Source of the DNA: Cypionkella sp.
Lineage (GTDB): Bacteria; Pseudomonadota; Alphaproteobacteria; Rhodobacterales; Rhodobacteraceae
DNA length: 64,000 nt
Assembly: GCF_030652235.1 (NCBI RefSeq)
Contig: NZ_JAUSBA010000050.1
Location: 1-64,000, forward strand
Reading direction: 5' to 3'
The stretch's first letter is position 1; each line of letters opens with the position of its first letter. The translations under genes were made by a program, and so were the position numbers. The notes under the pieces are model-generated. The model worked only from the letters and a program-made list of their open reading frames with translations. It ran no database searches and had not been told where the DNA came from. Positions 30,259 to 34,809 of this stretch are shown here, in pieces.

Positions 30259-30759
30259 TCAGCCCGCCCGCGCAGCCCGACCCACAAGGGCCAAGGGATC
30301 TACGCCATCATCGTCATCATCGTTCATTTCGGCGTCGTAGACCTCGCGGCGATACAGCTTGAAGCGGTTAGTGTAGCCCGCAAACGCCGCCTCTCCGGCA
30401 ATATCGTCTGCCGAAAACCCCATCTTGGCCCGCACTTTCAGCGGCAAAACGATGCGGCCATCGGGCTCAATCTCGACCATCACCGAGCGCGAAATCAAAT
30501 CGCGTTCTGCCTTATCGCGGTCGTCCGAACCCAGTTCCATCGCTTCGATCTTGGCGGCCAAAGCATCGGCACCCGACTTTGAATAACACTCGACGAAATT
30601 CCGGCTTTTGCCACCGTAGACCATGTAAACTTTGGGGCGTGCATCATCAGAGGAGGGGTCTTCTGCTTCCAGAATGCGGCGGAAGGCTGCTGGGATCGAA
30701 ACCCGCGCCTTGCTGTCTACCTTCTGGTAGAACTCGCCTCTGAACGCCTCACTCACCAT
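30259..30759 (-). CDS. mraZ: Transcriptional regulator MraZ
   Basis: The 166-aa protein contains two SpoVT-AbrB-type repeats ([22 protein letters not shown] and [17 protein letters not shown]). MraZ represses its own cell-wall/division cluster through direct TGGGN repeats spaced by 5 nt. Such repeats are abundant upstream (31025-31079 and 31330-31384). The C terminus carries an acidic stretch (NDDDDDG). It is the first gene of the cluster, behind a long leader with a strong terminator. Confidence 0.95.
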
Positions 30760-30797
30760 CGGCCTTTCGGCTCCTTTTGGGGTTCTTCAACCCCTTG

Positions 30798-30841
30798 AAA
30801 TAGAAAAGGCGGACCGAGCTGCTGCCACTGCTCGGTCCGCC
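30798..30841 (-). terminator. Strong intrinsic terminator inside the mraZ leader
   Basis: On the minus strand a perfect 12-bp stem (GGCGGACCGAGC / GCTCGGTCCGCC, 30841-30830 and 30819-30808, 10-nt loop) is followed by TTTTCTATTT. It lies only about 40-80 bp upstream of the mraZ start and on the same strand. It would therefore end most leader transcripts before mraZ, as reported for the UpsM leader of Rhodobacter sphaeroides. Confidence 0.8.
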
Positions 30842-31010
30842 GTCTGTCCCATCGCTGGGCGTCCTGCTGCGCTTGCCACCTGGGGGAGATGTCTGCTCGC
30901 TCGCGCGCCGGATCTGTCAAAGTAGGAAAGGCGGGGTGCCTGTATGAGCCTGTCTTTTTCGCCTTGTTCGGGGTCTTCAGCCGCCCCTGCTTTTTATGTC
31001 CCGCCGTTCC
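30803..31010 (-). ncRNA. UpsM-like leader sRNA upstream of mraZ (5' end uncertain)
   Basis: In R. sphaeroides the sRNA UpsM (about 200 nt) arises from the mraZ leader by partial termination and RNase E processing. Here the same layout is present: no ORF of note between 30760 and 31458, a strong minus-strand terminator at 30798-30841 and MraZ boxes further upstream. The 3' end is well supported by the terminator. The 5' end given is only an estimate from the known UpsM length. Sequence identity to UpsM could not be checked. Confidence 0.5.
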
Positions 31011-31024
31011 GTCTTCGTGAGAAC

Positions 31025-31079
31025 AGGGATGCCATGGGATTTCATGGGAAGCAATGGAAATCTTTGGGTGAGCAAGGGG
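31025..31079 (+). promoter_or_regulatory. MraZ-box array A (period-10 TGGGA repeats)
   Basis: GGG or GGA cores occur at exactly 10-bp steps: 31026, 31036, 31046, 31056, 31066 and 31076, giving units such as TGGGATTTCA and TGGGAAGCAA. E. coli MraZ binds TGGGN direct repeats with 5-nt spacers, i.e. the same period. The array reads on the strand opposite to mraZ, about 270 bp upstream of its start, close to where a UpsM-type promoter would lie. Confidence 0.65.
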
Positions 31080-31206
31080 AATATCTTGTTTTCAGGCCGC
31101 GCAGAAAACAGCATCTAGTGGCCTGGGAAGCTAAACTTAGTCGGTAACGCCGCTTTCACGGCAGCGTGAACACTAGATATAGATATTCAGAATTCCTTCG
31201 GCAGGC

Positions 31207-31221
31207 CCCCATGATTTCCCA
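31207..31221 (-). promoter_or_regulatory. Additional MraZ-box-like pair
   Basis: On the minus strand TGGGA-AATCA-TGGGG forms one more pair with the 10-bp period, between arrays A and B. A weaker TGGGT lies near 31250. It may extend the operator region of the mraZ promoter. Confidence 0.4.
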
Positions 31222-31304
31222 AGAATTTTTCAAATCTGCCAAAAATCACCCAAGTCTTGCGCAGAAATAGGCCGGATCGACGAAAGATAGTCAGCCCGAA
31301 ATGC

Positions 31305-31330
31305 AAAAAACCGAGGTTTCCCTCGGTTTT
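31305..31330 (-). terminator. Terminator after the Mrp/ApbC gene
   Basis: On the minus strand AAAACCGAGG-GAAA-CCTCGGTTTTTT forms a 10-bp stem with a GNRA tetraloop and a T run. It lies about 130 bp beyond the stop of the Mrp/ApbC gene and separates it from the mraZ leader. Confidence 0.8.
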
Positions 31331-31384
31331 CCCATGGCATCCCATGAAAGTGATTCGCAGGGCTAGGTTTCCCGTGAACGCCCA
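31330..31384 (-). promoter_or_regulatory. MraZ-box-like array B, inverted relative to array A
   Basis: On the plus strand CCC cores lie at 31331, 31341, 31371 and 31381, all in one 10-bp phase. On the minus strand this reads TGGGA-TGCCA-TGGGA. The 14-mer GGGATGCCATGGGA of array A (31026-31039) recurs here exactly in inverted orientation (31330-31343), about 300 bp away. Confidence 0.5.
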
Positions 31385-31458
31385 TGTCGGGTCGGCGTAG
31401 AGTGGGTCTTCAACGCACCACCCTTCCCATCTCGCGTAGGTTTGGTTAAAAACCCACC

Positions 31459-32559
31459 CTAAGCCATACCGCCCGCAATCAGCCTTTGCGCCAGCCGTGC
31501 ATAGGCCTGCGCATGCGGACTGTCGCCCAAAGCAATCGGCGTCCCTGCATCCCCCGCCAAACGCACATCTATAGACAGCGGCAATTCGCCCAAGAACGGC
31601 AGGTCCAACCGTTTCGCCTCTGCCACCACCCCGCCATGGCCGAACAGATGTTCCTCATGGCCGCAATTCGGGCAGATATAGGTCGACATGTTCTCGATCA
31701 GCCCCAGCACCGGGGTTTTCAGCTTCTGGAACATGTCCAGCGCCTTGCGGGCATCCAGCAGGGCCACATCCTGCGGGGTCGAGACCACGATCGCGCCCGT
31801 CAGATGCGTGCGCTGGCAAAGCGTCAATTGAATATCGCCGGTGCCCGGTGGCAGGTCGATGATCAGCACATCCAACTCGCCCCAAGCCACCTGCCCCAAC
31901 AACTGCTGCAACGCCCCCATCAGCATCGGGCCGCGCCAGATCACCGCCTCATCTTCCTTCAGCATCAAGCCAATGGACATCATCGTGACGCCATGCGCGT
32001 GCAACGGCTCAATAATCTTGCCATCAGGGCTGGCCGGGCGCTTGTTCACCCCCATCATGCGGGGCTGGCTGGGACCATATATATCAGCATCCAGCAAGCC
32101 GACCCGCCGCCCCTGTTTCGCCAAGGCAACGGCGAGGTTAGAACTGACGGTGGATTTGCCCACCCCGCCCTTGCCCGAGCCAATCGCGATAATCCGGTCC
32201 ACCCCGGCGATGCGGGCAGGCCCGCCCTGATGTGGTGTCGGGTGCTGGCCGATCTTCACCGCGCCGGGATTTGCACCCAACATGGGCGGTGCCGCCGTGG
32301 CCGCTTTCGGCGCCGGGCCGTGCGCCGTCATCACCGCCTGCACATCCGTCACACCGGGCAGCGCCTTCACCGCCATCTCAGCCGCCACCTGCGCCGGGGC
32401 CAAAGCGTGCGCCTCGGCAGGCGTCGGCGCTTCAATAACGAATCGCACCAGCCCGCCTTCGACCATCACCGCGCGCACCAGATCGCGCGACACCAGCGTG
32501 CCGCCCGGCACCTGCACCCGCGCTAGCACTGCCATCACTTCATCCCGTGTCACGCTCAT
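31459..32559 (-). CDS. Mrp/NBP35-family iron-sulfur carrier ATPase (ApbC)
   Basis: The 366-aa protein has an N-terminal DUF59/MIP18-like domain (residues 1-85), an Ala/Pro linker and a P-loop ATPase domain with deviant Walker [28 protein letters not shown], and [13 protein letters not shown]. The C-terminal CPNC pair needed to hold a bridging Fe-S cluster is present. Such proteins carry or assemble 4Fe-4S clusters. It is a single gene reading towards the mraZ leader, with a terminator between them. Confidence 0.9.
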
Positions 32560-32755
32560 GGTTTTTCCTTCGCCCGCATTTTAGTTTGCACGCTACTTAA
32601 ATTGGCAGTTGCGCCAGGCAAAGTTGTGCGCTTTGACGGAAAGGGCAAGCCCTGTTGACCAAACGCTCAAATATTCAGCGAAGCGTCTGTTAAAAATGAA
32701 CATTTTGCGACGCTTAGCCATGCGCTTGTTGCATGGCTGCATTGATCACTCGACC

Positions 32756-32785
32756 CATTGTGCAGTTGCAGCATTTGCCCCATGT
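32756..32785 (+). promoter_or_regulatory. Candidate heat-shock (RpoH-type) promoter for the DUF1127/sRNA transcript
   Basis: CCCCATGT (32778-32785) matches the -10 of sigma-32 promoters, and CATTGTG (32756-32762) is a weaker -35, with 15 bp between them. The homologous locus in R. sphaeroides (RSP_6037/ccaF1 and CcsR RNAs) is transcribed by RpoHI/RpoHII. A 7-bp stem GCCATGC/GCATGGC (32717-32737) lies upstream. Confidence 0.4.
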
Positions 32786-32861
32786 TACCCCTAACAGCGG
32801 AACAGAAGGGTTTAGGCATCCGGCCAAGACCAACCGCTCGCAGAACAAAAATGAGGCTATC

Positions 32862-33077
32862 ATGGCATACGTAAACACTACCCGCGCCGTCCAAGTATCG
32901 GCATCCGACCGTATCTCGGGCATCTTCGCGTCGATCTCGGCAATGCTGGCACGCCGCCGGGTTTATGACCGCACCATCCGCGAATTGCGTCAGCTGACCG
33001 ACCGTGAGCTGTCCGATCTGGGCATCGCCCGCTCGCTGATCACCGAAATCGCCCGTGAGGCAGCTTACGGCAAGTAA
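32862..33077 (+). CDS. DUF1127 small RNA-binding protein (CcaF1-like)
   Basis: The 71-aa basic protein ends in the DUF1127 motif RELRQLTDRELSDLGIARSLITEIAR. In R. sphaeroides a 71-aa DUF1127 protein (CcaF1, RSP_6037) is encoded directly upstream of the CcsR1-4 sRNAs, binds RNA and helps their maturation under stress. Here the same gene is followed 11 bp later by the first CCTCCTCCC hairpin. ATG at 32862 (MAYVNTTRAVQ) is chosen; the upstream codons are non-conserved leader. The link to CcaF1 is by family, size and neighbourhood. Confidence 0.85.
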   Translation: MAYVNTTRAVQVSASDRISGIFASISAMLARRRVYDRTIRELRQLTDRELSDLGIARSLITEIAREAAYGK

Positions 33078-33087
33078 TCCCTGAACC

Positions 33088-33596
33088 GGCCGCTACCTCC
33101 TCCCAGCGGCTTGGTTTCACGGCGCGGCGGCGCGCAACTCCTCCCTTGCGCCGTCGCCTTTTTATTGTCTTCGATGAGCCTTCCTCCTCCCTTGGGCTCT
33201 CGGATACGCGGCGATCTGGTCTCCTCCCTCAGATCGTCGCACCCTATTCGCGCGGCCCACCTCCTCCCGGGCCTGTGTGATCAGGCGGTGATCCAACCTC
33301 CTCCCTGGATCACTGCCACCTTATTTGACTTCGATGAGCCCTCCTCCTCCCTTGGGCTCTCGGACACGCGGCGATCTGGTCTCCTCCCTCAGATCGTCGC
33401 ACCCTATTCGCGCGGCCCACCTCCTCCCGGGCCAGTGTGATCAGGCAGCGGCCCTAACCTCCTCCCTAGGGTCGCTGCCGCTTTAACTCCCCGGCCAACT
33501 CCTCCCGGGCCGGAGATAGCGGTGACGCGGGCCACCTCCTCCCTGGCCTGCACGATTTGGCGGCACCCCCCTCTCCTCCTCCCTAGGGGTGCCGCC
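33088..33596 (+). ncRNA. Array of 13 CCUCCUCCC-loop hairpins (CcsR/cuckoo RNA family)
   Basis: Thirteen stem-loops follow each other in about 510 bp, each with CCTCCTCCC or CTCCTCCC in the loop. Loop motifs are at 33096, 33138, 33183, 33221, 33260, 33297, 33343, 33381, 33420, 33458, 33499, 33535 and 33575. Stems are perfect or nearly so (e.g. 211-218/230-237, 288-295/306-313 and 559-569/586-596, adding 33000). Known cuckoo RNAs carry two such loops, so 6-7 sRNAs may be encoded; R. sphaeroides has four (CcsR1-4). The motif is anti-Shine-Dalgarno and known to be stress-induced. T-runs after hairpin 2 (33159-33164) may be an internal end. Confidence 0.85.
33170..33446 (+). repeat. 117-bp duplicated unit inside the sRNA array
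   Basis: 33170-33286 and 33330-33446 are the same 117-bp sequence with three substitutions (33181/33341, 33205/33365 and 33274/33434). Each copy holds three hairpins (numbers 3-5 and 7-9). The period is 160 bp, with hairpin 6 in between. This shows recent segmental duplication as the way the array grew. Confidence 0.9.
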
Positions 33597-33660
33597 TTCC
33601 TCCCCTTGCATCTGACATGCCGCCCCACGATACTTCCGTAGGGGTAAAACAGGCGGGTTC

Positions 33661-34809
33661 ATGCGGATTTCTATGCTTTCAGCGGCGCTTGTGGCGGCAT
33701 TGGTCGGCTACGGCTCTACCATCGCCCTCGTGCTTTCCGCCGCCGCCGCCCTCGGTGCCAGCCCCGCGCAAACCGCCAGCTGGGTGTTCGCAATCTGCAT
33801 CGCCAAGGCGGCAGGCTCGGCCTATCTCAGCTATGCCCACCGCATCCCCGTCGTGCTGGCATGGTCCACCCCCGGCGCCGCGCTGATCGCCGCCACCAGC
33901 GGAATCAGCATGGCCGAGGCTGTGGGTGCGTTCGCGCTCGCAGGCGTACTGATCGCCCTCACCGGAGCCTTGCGCCCGTTGGGTCGCCTCGTCGCGCTGA
34001 TACCGGACGGCGTCGCTGCCGGAATGCTCGCAGGCGTGCTCTTGCCGTTCTGCCTGAAGGGCAGCCTCGCCGCCCAAAGCCTGCCCGGCTCGGTGCTGCC
34101 GATGATCGCTATCTTCTTGGCGGTCAGGCTGAAAAACCCCGCCCTTGCGGTGCTGGCGGCGCTGGCCACCGGGCTGATCCTTGCCTTCGCGACCGGGGCA
34201 GCACACCTGCCACAGCTTGCCCTACCGCTGCCGACCCTCACGTTCATCCCGCCCGCGTTCCGGCTGGATGTGCTGCTCGGCCTTGGCCTGCCGCTGTATC
34301 TGGTGACGATGGCCTCGCAAAACCTGCCCGGTTTCGCCACCCTGCGCGCCGCCGGATACGAACCGCCCGTCGGTGCCGCCCTGATCACCACCGGCGGGAT
34401 TTCTGCCGTCGCAGGCCTGTTTGGCGCGCATACCGTCAGCATGGCCGCGATCACGGCGGCGATTTGTCTGGGCGACGACACCCACCCCGACCGCAACCAG
34501 CGCTGGAAGGTCGGTCTGATCTACGCCGGGTTCTGGGTCATGCTGGGCTTGCTTGGGCCGGTGATCCTGCCGATTCTGGCGGCCCTGCCGCCCGCGCTGA
34601 TGATAGCATTGGTCGCTTTGGCGCTGCTCGGCCCCCTGATGGGCGCGCTGACCGGAGCGTTCACCCCACCGCACACCCGCTTTGCCGCGACGGTGACGCT
34701 CGCCACCACCGCCTCGGGCGTCGCCGCGTTTGGGATTGGTGCGGCGTTCTGGGGCTTGCTGGCAGGTCTGGCCGTTTACACATTAGAGCGGTTGAAGAAA
34801 AATCCGTGA
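33661..34809 (+). CDS. BenE-family benzoate/H+ symporter-like transporter
   Basis: The 382-aa protein has about 11-12 hydrophobic segments and BenE-type motifs: VVLAWSTPGAALIA near residue 65, LGLPLYLVTMASQNLPGFATLRAAGYEPP in the middle, and FGAHTVSMAAITAAICLGDDTHPDRNQRW. The family moves benzoate or related anions with protons across the inner membrane. No benzoate degradation genes are present, so the substrate is open. The start at 33661 lies 65 bp after the last sRNA hairpin. Confidence 0.85.
   Translation: MRISMLSAALVAALVGYGSTIALVLSAAAALGASPAQTASWVFAICIAKAAGSAYLSYAHRIPVVLAWSTPGAALIAATSGISMAEAVGAFALAGVLIALTGALRPLGRLVALIPDGVAAGMLAGVLLPFCLKGSLAAQSLPGSVLPMIAIFLAVRLKNPALAVLAALATGLILAFATGAAHLPQLALPLPTLTFIPPAFRLDVLLGLGLPLYLVTMASQNLPGFATLRAAGYEPPVGAALITTGGISAVAGLFGAHTVSMAAITAAICLGDDTHPDRNQRWKVGLIYAGFWVMLGLLGPVILPILAALPPALMIALVALALLGPLMGALTGAFTPPHTRFAATVTLATTASGVAAFGIGAAFWGLLAGLAVYTLERLKKNP

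Follow-up and report, generated by a model that had tools for sequence, protein, structure and literature searches.

The window, by which we mean the whole 64-kb stretch analysed (contig C29 of a 4.8-Mb Cypionkella sp. genome), contains a long run of hairpins just behind a small DUF1127 gene, and the question it raises is whether this run is an exceptional expansion of the CcsR small RNAs of Rhodobacter sphaeroides, as the initial annotation held, or a member of a known series. The locus is of a known kind, and that first reading made it more exceptional than is warranted. Taken by itself, the array is a CcsR locus of ordinary type, if rather long; the newer result is a box in its promoter region that has a twin elsewhere in the genome.

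Anatomy of the array

The gene in front of the array was correctly described as a 71-aa DUF1127 gene that the hairpins directly follow (Pfam PF06568), with 19 nt between its stop codon and the first motif core. The nearest named relatives of its product are in Cypionkella psychrotolerans (97%), Cypionkella sp. RYN_515, Pseudorhodobacter sp. PARRP1 and C. aquatica, and the genome has four other DUF1127 genes. We also note, on the minus strand of the window, a leader of ~700 nt (30760-31458) ahead of mraZ (30259-30759). Near 31330-31300 it has a hairpin that looks like a terminator (by eye), and it lies where the dcw cluster of R. sphaeroides has its UpsM leader.

The exact motif CTCCTCCC is present 13 times on the plus strand between 33097 and 33583 (487 nt) and has no other copy in the 64 kb of the window, whichever strand is read, against a mean of 1.94 and a maximum of 6 in 100 shuffles. 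Nine of the 13 are CCTCCTCCC, with a leading C, and in H2, H4, H8 and H11 the letter in front of CTCCTCCC is A or T; CCUCCUCCC (or CUCCUCCC) is in the loop of all 13 hairpins, the full nine letters in nine of them. When the hairpins were folded singly with the motif forced unpaired, all 13 formed stems of 8-13 pairs with the motif in the loop, and the free fold of each was identical. In 500 shuffles of the flanking letters nine hairpins were never equalled, two were equalled once, H11 six times and H12 nine times. The whole array (525 nt) folds at -253.3 kcal/mol, compared with -183.1 +/- 5.5 for 100 dinucleotide shuffles (z -12.8; -11.5 in a separate calculation). Motif count and folding thus bear out the thirteen stem-loops first described, nine with one form of the motif and four with variants. 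Their stems, said to be self-complementary and unrelated, are indeed self-complementary by these folds and shuffles but are not all unrelated, since H3-H6 and H7-H10 are a tandem duplication with a period of 160 bp, 89% alike over 149 nt, to which part of the window's hairpin number is due.

The unit of the array is a pair of hairpins, of which the window has about 6.5. Hairpins were surveyed at 57 loci, 29 of them from the family, 27 from the 51 named ones and one the window itself, and 55 of these have at least one hairpin (L039 and L095 gave none); the survey left out L041, L042, L045 and L047-L067, where earlier counts gave no array, and the 60 family loci L098-L157. In arrays of at least six hairpins, with linkers of more than 60 nt excluded, odd hairpins are followed by linkers of 3.8 nt on average (n=232) and even hairpins by linkers of 21.5 nt (n=196). 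In arrays of at least four, the mean number of T residues in the 8 nt 3' of the stem is 0.80, 3.60, 0.78, 2.00, 0.91 and 2.09 for hairpins 1-6 (n=50, 50, 50, 48, 47 and 46) and 3.54 after the last hairpin (n=50). At L082 of family genome G116, which has eight motifs, the spacings of 39, 65, 35, 69, 35, 67 and 34 make four clean pairs, and the CcsR1 model has four matches there. The Rfam CcsR1 model itself is 83 nt long and spans two hairpins, and it matches four window pairs end to end. In R. sphaeroides, RSs0680a comprises two stem-loops, both bearing the motif (PMC3927594), and RSs0680a-d were renamed CcsR1-4 (PMC5036791); the known locus would therefore have about 8 hairpins. With the pair as unit, repeat counts become comparable across genomes. 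H11 is seemingly the remnant of a pair whose partner was lost, because sister genome G003 retains an extra hairpin there (by eye).

Table 1. Features of the array locus and of the LsrB-like regulator gene (window positions; C25 is another contig)
Feature	Position	Strand	Evidence or remark
ParA/NUBPL-type P-loop NTPase gene	31459-32559	minus	one flank of DUF1127 gene
VtlR/LsrB-type box, ATGC-N7-GCATGGCTGCATTG	32720-32744	+	conserved 5' of array loci
RpoH-type promoter candidate, TTGTGC-N14-CCCCATGTT	32758-32786	+	conserved in upstream alignment
ccaF1-like DUF1127 gene, 71 aa	32862-33077	+	Pfam PF06568, E 2.7e-10
Hairpin array, 13 stem-loops	33083-33596	+	
CcsR1 model match to pair 1 (H1+H2)	33077-33162	+	41.8 bits
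H1	33083-33117	+	folding
H2, then terminator-like TTTTATTG; pair 1 with H1	33121-33159	+	folding
Tandem duplication, period 160, 149-nt copies at 89%	33138-33446	+	
H3	33170-33204	+	folding
H4, pair 2 with H3	33208-33240	+	folding; pair without CcsR1-model match
H5	33244-33284	+	folding, separately from H6 (33284 common to both)
H6, pair 3 with H5	33284-33317	+	CcsR1 model 33245-33322, 41.3 bits
H7, tandem copy of H3	33330-33364	+	folding, repeat comparison
H8, tandem copy of H4; pair 4 with H7	33368-33400	+	no CcsR1-model match to pair
H9, tandem copy of H5	33404-33444	+	folding (separately from H10), repeat comparison
H10, pair 5 with H9	33444-33479	+	CcsR1 model 33405-33483, 51.2 bits, E 2.3e-11
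H11, seemingly half a pair	33488-33516	+	folding
H12	33527-33551	+	folding
H13, last of the array, pair with H12; weak T-tail TTCCTCCC	33559-33596	+	CcsR1 model 33522-33598, 34.6 bits
BenE transporter gene	33661-34809	plus	other flank of DUF1127 gene and array
LsrB-like LysR gene (locus L226, C25:4375-5402)	C25:4530-5402	minus	51% to trxB-linked LysR protein

A default Rfam scan of the window reports a tRNA only. The CcsR1 model (RF02791) gives 34.6-51.2 bits on four window pairs, with E values from 1.8e-6 to 2.3e-11, and no match to pairs H3+H4 and H7+H8; the covariance search that the initial annotation had suggested is therefore significant by E value on four pairs, but all its scores are below the Rfam gathering score of 65.3. 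The three-hairpin ar14 model (RF02344) gives 53.8, 48.5 and 35.4 bits on three stretches of the window, the best of which does not reach its gathering score of 58.8. At E 1e-8 the CcsR1 model finds 104 of 199 family genomes and none of 14 controls, and it exceeds the gathering score in 8 of the 199. Family resemblance is thus significant but sub-threshold, and the DUF1127 gene, the folds and the CcsR1-model matches together support the assignment to the ccaF1-CcsR (cuckoo, CIN1) kind with anti-Shine-Dalgarno loops that had been made from the letters of the window.

Array size and stem pairing among relatives

At least three consecutive motifs are present in 14 of the 15 genomes of the genus (own included). 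Hairpin counts over the 55 surveyed loci range from 1 to 17 with a median of 9, counts of 7-17 being common in the family, and eight loci have at least 13: the window, L018 (15), L020 (13), L071 (14), L073 (13), L091 (17), L092 (13) and L093 (14). A cruder motif count over 90 family loci (from 93 places, G092, G129 and G155 left out) gave at least 13 in seven, the window's own among them, and one or none in 17; this counter stops at gaps, so that the C. psychrotolerans locus L017 scores 2 where the folding survey finds 12 hairpins, and L081 scores 1 rather than 8. With 8 of 55 loci (7 of 90 by the cruder count) at 13 or more, thirteen hairpins are in the upper part of the family range and are not particular to this Cypionkella sp. 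genome. The locus had been called "far larger" than the known one, an expansion of "about threefold"; it is ~1.6-fold as large as the ~8 known hairpins, and the comparison of loop counts across relatives that the initial annotation had proposed leaves nothing exceptional in its size.

Three of these arrays, L091, L093 and L071, are in other genera and are longer than the window's (17, 14 and 14 hairpins). Cypionkella sp. RYN_515 has an extra pair of CTCCTCC motifs well 3' of its main array (L018:4102-4144). A candidate second cuckoo locus in the present genome, with two motifs at C8:125614 and 125661, was rejected; paired arms were not clear there by eye.

Selection on the stems was judged by comparing all 13 window hairpins with their best counterparts in six relatives, with identity taken over 32 flank letters and with controls in which the pairing partner was slid by -2, -1, +1 or +2. 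In the 23 comparisons with at least 25 of 32 letters identical there are 10 double changes, all of them still paired, and single changes keep a pair in 9 cases and break it in 12; each slid control has 0 paired doubles (broken 0, 2, 2 and 0). At 22 or more of 32 (31 comparisons) 15 doubles are paired and none broken, compared with 2, 6, 0 and 2 paired in the controls, and at 19 or more (43 comparisons), where true pairs and controls stand less far apart, 23 are paired and 6 broken, compared with 7, 16, 6 and 10 paired. In the closest comparisons 57 of 736 arm positions have changed and the loop core has not, a constancy that is partly built in by the choice of hairpins by motif. Paired doubles exceed those in the slid controls, and on this comparison pairing is therefore under selection among close hairpins, though single changes often break pairs. 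The cuckoo pattern of free stem sequence with pairing kept was found, most clearly among close hairpins. That selection acts on structure, as the initial annotation argued, is upheld by the ten of ten double changes that stay paired; in the loosest set 83 single changes break a pair and 35 keep it.

The promoter box and an LsrB-like regulator gene

A simple scan of the window found no sigma-70 promoter and no terminator, its 8-nt loop limit excluding the array hairpins, and the 3' end of the array has a weak T-tail only. An alignment of 26 upstream regions contains a strongly conserved stretch that holds the promoter candidate TTGTGC-N14-CCCCATGTT, which we take to resemble a sigma-32 promoter. 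The R. sphaeroides operon is reported to have an RpoHI/RpoHII promoter (PMC10253847).

Just upstream of the promoter candidate is the box. Its letters 32730-32744 are the exact reverse complement of the 15-bp VtlR-binding motif CAATGCAGCCATGCA quoted for Brucella (PMC12595884) and also fit GCAT-N3-TG-N3-T (PMC7486931); the exact 15-mer is found once in the whole genome. When 350 nt upstream of 81 loci were searched for TGCATGGCWGCATTG, it was present with at most 3 mismatches at all 50 loci with at least four hairpins (window's included; at most 2 in 46, at most 1 in 40) and in 6 of 1620 shuffled upstream regions. Among the 28 loci that have one hairpin or none it is also present at 11 (at most 2 mismatches in 6); several are from Paracoccus, and the sequence of one, L039, ends just 3' of the gene. 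By its distribution the box therefore tracks the DUF1127 gene and is not tied to the array alone. The genome's other four DUF1127 genes lack it, the best match in their loci having 3 mismatches. The bare 15-mer has many sites with 2-3 mismatches, seemingly mostly in coding sequence (by eye). The extended box is matched perfectly at exactly two places in the genome, one in the ccaF1 promoter and one downstream of an LsrB-like LysR gene, and with 2 mismatches at six more.

The order trxB-vtlR is well conserved in Alphaproteobacteria, and in Agrobacterium vtlR follows trxB and abcR1/2 follow vtlR (PMC7486931). By eye, an MDWDKLR-type LysR gene follows trxB at 15 of 30 class loci. The trxB-linked LysR protein used as query (P0001) has one outstanding relative in each of 61 Rhodobacteraceae genomes (own included), at 241.6-329 bits, and no second-best match in them exceeds 141.9 bits. 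In the present genome the best solved relative of the LsrB-like gene product is 9HH1 (241.6 bits; next 108.4), which is Agrobacterium LsrB (PMC11975290). These scores and the position of the gene suggest that it is the LsrB orthologue. The genome's own trxB locus (L183, with 1.5-kb flanks) has no LysR neighbour, and Lrp-like and Hsp20-like ORFs are seen there by eye. The protein has a single cysteine and none at the LsrB cysteine positions (by eye), and may therefore lack the redox sensing that has been reported for LsrB.

The second perfect box is 131 nt past the matched LysR stretch and 110 nt past the stop codon, on the strand of the gene. It is followed by a small RNA-like stretch with ACCUCCCUGUUGGAC and a terminator, which scores 54.1 bits with the SorY model (E 3.3e-10; gathering score 111) and 41.8 with SorX (gathering score 46.6). 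Two of seven fetched LysR loci have SorY (115 bits) or SorX (57.2 bits) there above the gathering score, and the core of the small RNA is seen by eye in six of the seven, L231 being without it. Among the matches listed, which cover 37 of the 61 genomes searched (the last of the 37 in part), 17 have a box with at most 2 mismatches within 300 nt 3' of the LysR gene on its strand, and in those 37 genomes 8 of 9 DUF1127 places have the box upstream. The other 20 of these 37 have no such box 3' of the gene, and the bare 15-mer is found there on the same strand at up to 3 mismatches in just 2 of the 7 fetched loci (L226 and L230), the palindromic arms being more constant than the 15-mer. This patchiness, together with the closeness of the predicted site to the promoter candidate and the derivation of the published motif from Rhizobiales (PMC12595884, PMC7486931), would fit a box bound by a different dimeric regulator, or one that is simply part of the promoter. 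We think this unlikely: the only two perfect extended sites in the genome are the one before ccaF1 and the one just 3' of the LsrB-like gene, that second placement recurs in the 17 genomes, and the best solved relative of the regulator is LsrB by a wide interval in score.

The promoter box and its twin beside the SorY/SorX-like small RNA suggest a shared regulatory circuit under the LsrB-like protein. We lean towards the view that an ancient regulon of LsrB/VtlR, an adjacent anti-Shine-Dalgarno small RNA and a DUF1127 gene is common to Rhizobiales and Rhodobacteraceae; in Rhodobacteraceae the small RNA would be SorY/SorX, positionally equivalent to AbcR, and the DUF1127 gene would bear the CcsR array, so that one LysR regulator would drive both anti-Shine-Dalgarno small RNA systems of the singlet-oxygen response. 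Such a shared regulon is at odds with a section heading of PMC11975290, "LsrB is a LTTR unique to Rhizobiales". CcsR and SorX/SorY are described as being under RpoE and RpoHI/HII control, and in those parts of the open-licence literature that our search covered we found no tie of either to the LsrB/VtlR regulator. If the regulon is real, rhizobial VtlR/AbcR and the photo-oxidative stress small RNAs of Rhodobacter are one conserved circuit.

A probable ccaF1-CcsR operon and its known relatives

The locus is quite probably a ccaF1-CcsR operon, transcribed as one RNA and processed to two-hairpin anti-Shine-Dalgarno small RNAs. The transcript that we infer would run from the RpoH-type stress promoter and encode the DUF1127 protein and then the ~6.5 two-hairpin CcsR modules, with binding of the LsrB/VtlR-type LysR regulator probably adding control at the conserved box just 5'. 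RNase E, with the help of CcaF1 that has been reported in R. sphaeroides, would cut the precursor into small RNAs that each show two CCUCCUCCC loops. These loops would base-pair to G-rich Shine-Dalgarno sequences, so that target mRNAs are translated less or become less stable; many of the targets would probably serve uptake or catabolism. H2 is a strong hairpin whose T-rich tail comes right behind the first pair (window 33121-33169), and it is perhaps a leaky terminator within the array, one that determines how much of the first pair is made relative to the remainder.

Perfect Shine-Dalgarno complements of the form GGGAGGAG-N3-9-ATG occur 12 times in the genome and once for the reversed pattern. 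This excess does not discriminate as proof of targets, because GGGAGGAG is itself a strong Shine-Dalgarno sequence, and the twelve sites are candidate targets. Eight of the 12 frames were checked in Pfam and three in NCBIfam. Seven belong to named families: dctA, iolD (a 97-aa piece), an ABC permease, a sigma-54 activator, an AraC regulator, a phasin and an integrase (a piece).

The array could instead remain uncut and act as a titration sponge like CsrB/RsmZ, its equal loops sequestering CcaF1 or Shine-Dalgarno-bearing mRNAs and its hairpin number setting a threshold. The repetition of a single loop motif behind a gene for an RNA-binding-type protein, hairpin numbers that vary from 1 to 17 across loci, and the RNA binding and influence on CcsR levels reported for R. 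sphaeroides CcaF1 (PMC10253847) agree with this; we regard it as improbable, however, as the spaced-pair module with T-rich ends fits cutting into separate small RNAs and the loop is an anti-Shine-Dalgarno sequence for which an mRNA-pairing role has been proposed (PMC3927594). It is very improbable that the hairpins are mainly 3' UTR stabilisers or terminators of the ccaF1 mRNA with a loop motif that is a by-product of tandem duplication, for although a duplication is present and H2 and the last hairpin are terminator-like (at least 5 T in 8 nt) at 18 and 17 of 50 loci, the arms vary (at the 57 of 736 positions above) while the loop core, in part through the motif-based choice, is constant, and CcsR RNAs are described as regulators in R. 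sphaeroides.

As a ccaF1-CcsR operon the locus is like ccaF1-CcsR1-4 of R. sphaeroides (RSP_6037) in having a 71-aa DUF1127 gene and then two-hairpin units with CCUCCUCCC loops, an RpoH-type promoter candidate and four pairs that fit the CcsR1 model. It differs in having ~6.5 pairs rather than four, one of them seemingly minus a hairpin and two of them tandem copies, and in model scores below the gathering score. It shares variable stems and conserved CCUCCUCCC loops with the cuckoo or alpha-r14 RNAs (ar14 RF02344, NfeR1, SmelA075, SmelA099; PMC3927594, PMC10746234), but these have 2-4 hairpins (PMC4504443), whereas the window has a long array joined to ccaF1. The Rhizobiales VtlR/LsrB regulon, which comprises the regulator, AbcR small RNAs and DUF1127 genes, likewise has the 15-bp box before a DUF1127 gene and a small RNA just 3' of the LsrB homologue, as abcR1/2 after vtlR (PMC7486931); here, in contrast, trxB has no LysR neighbour, the regulator has one cysteine, the small RNA resembles SorY/SorX, and the DUF1127 gene bears a CcsR array.
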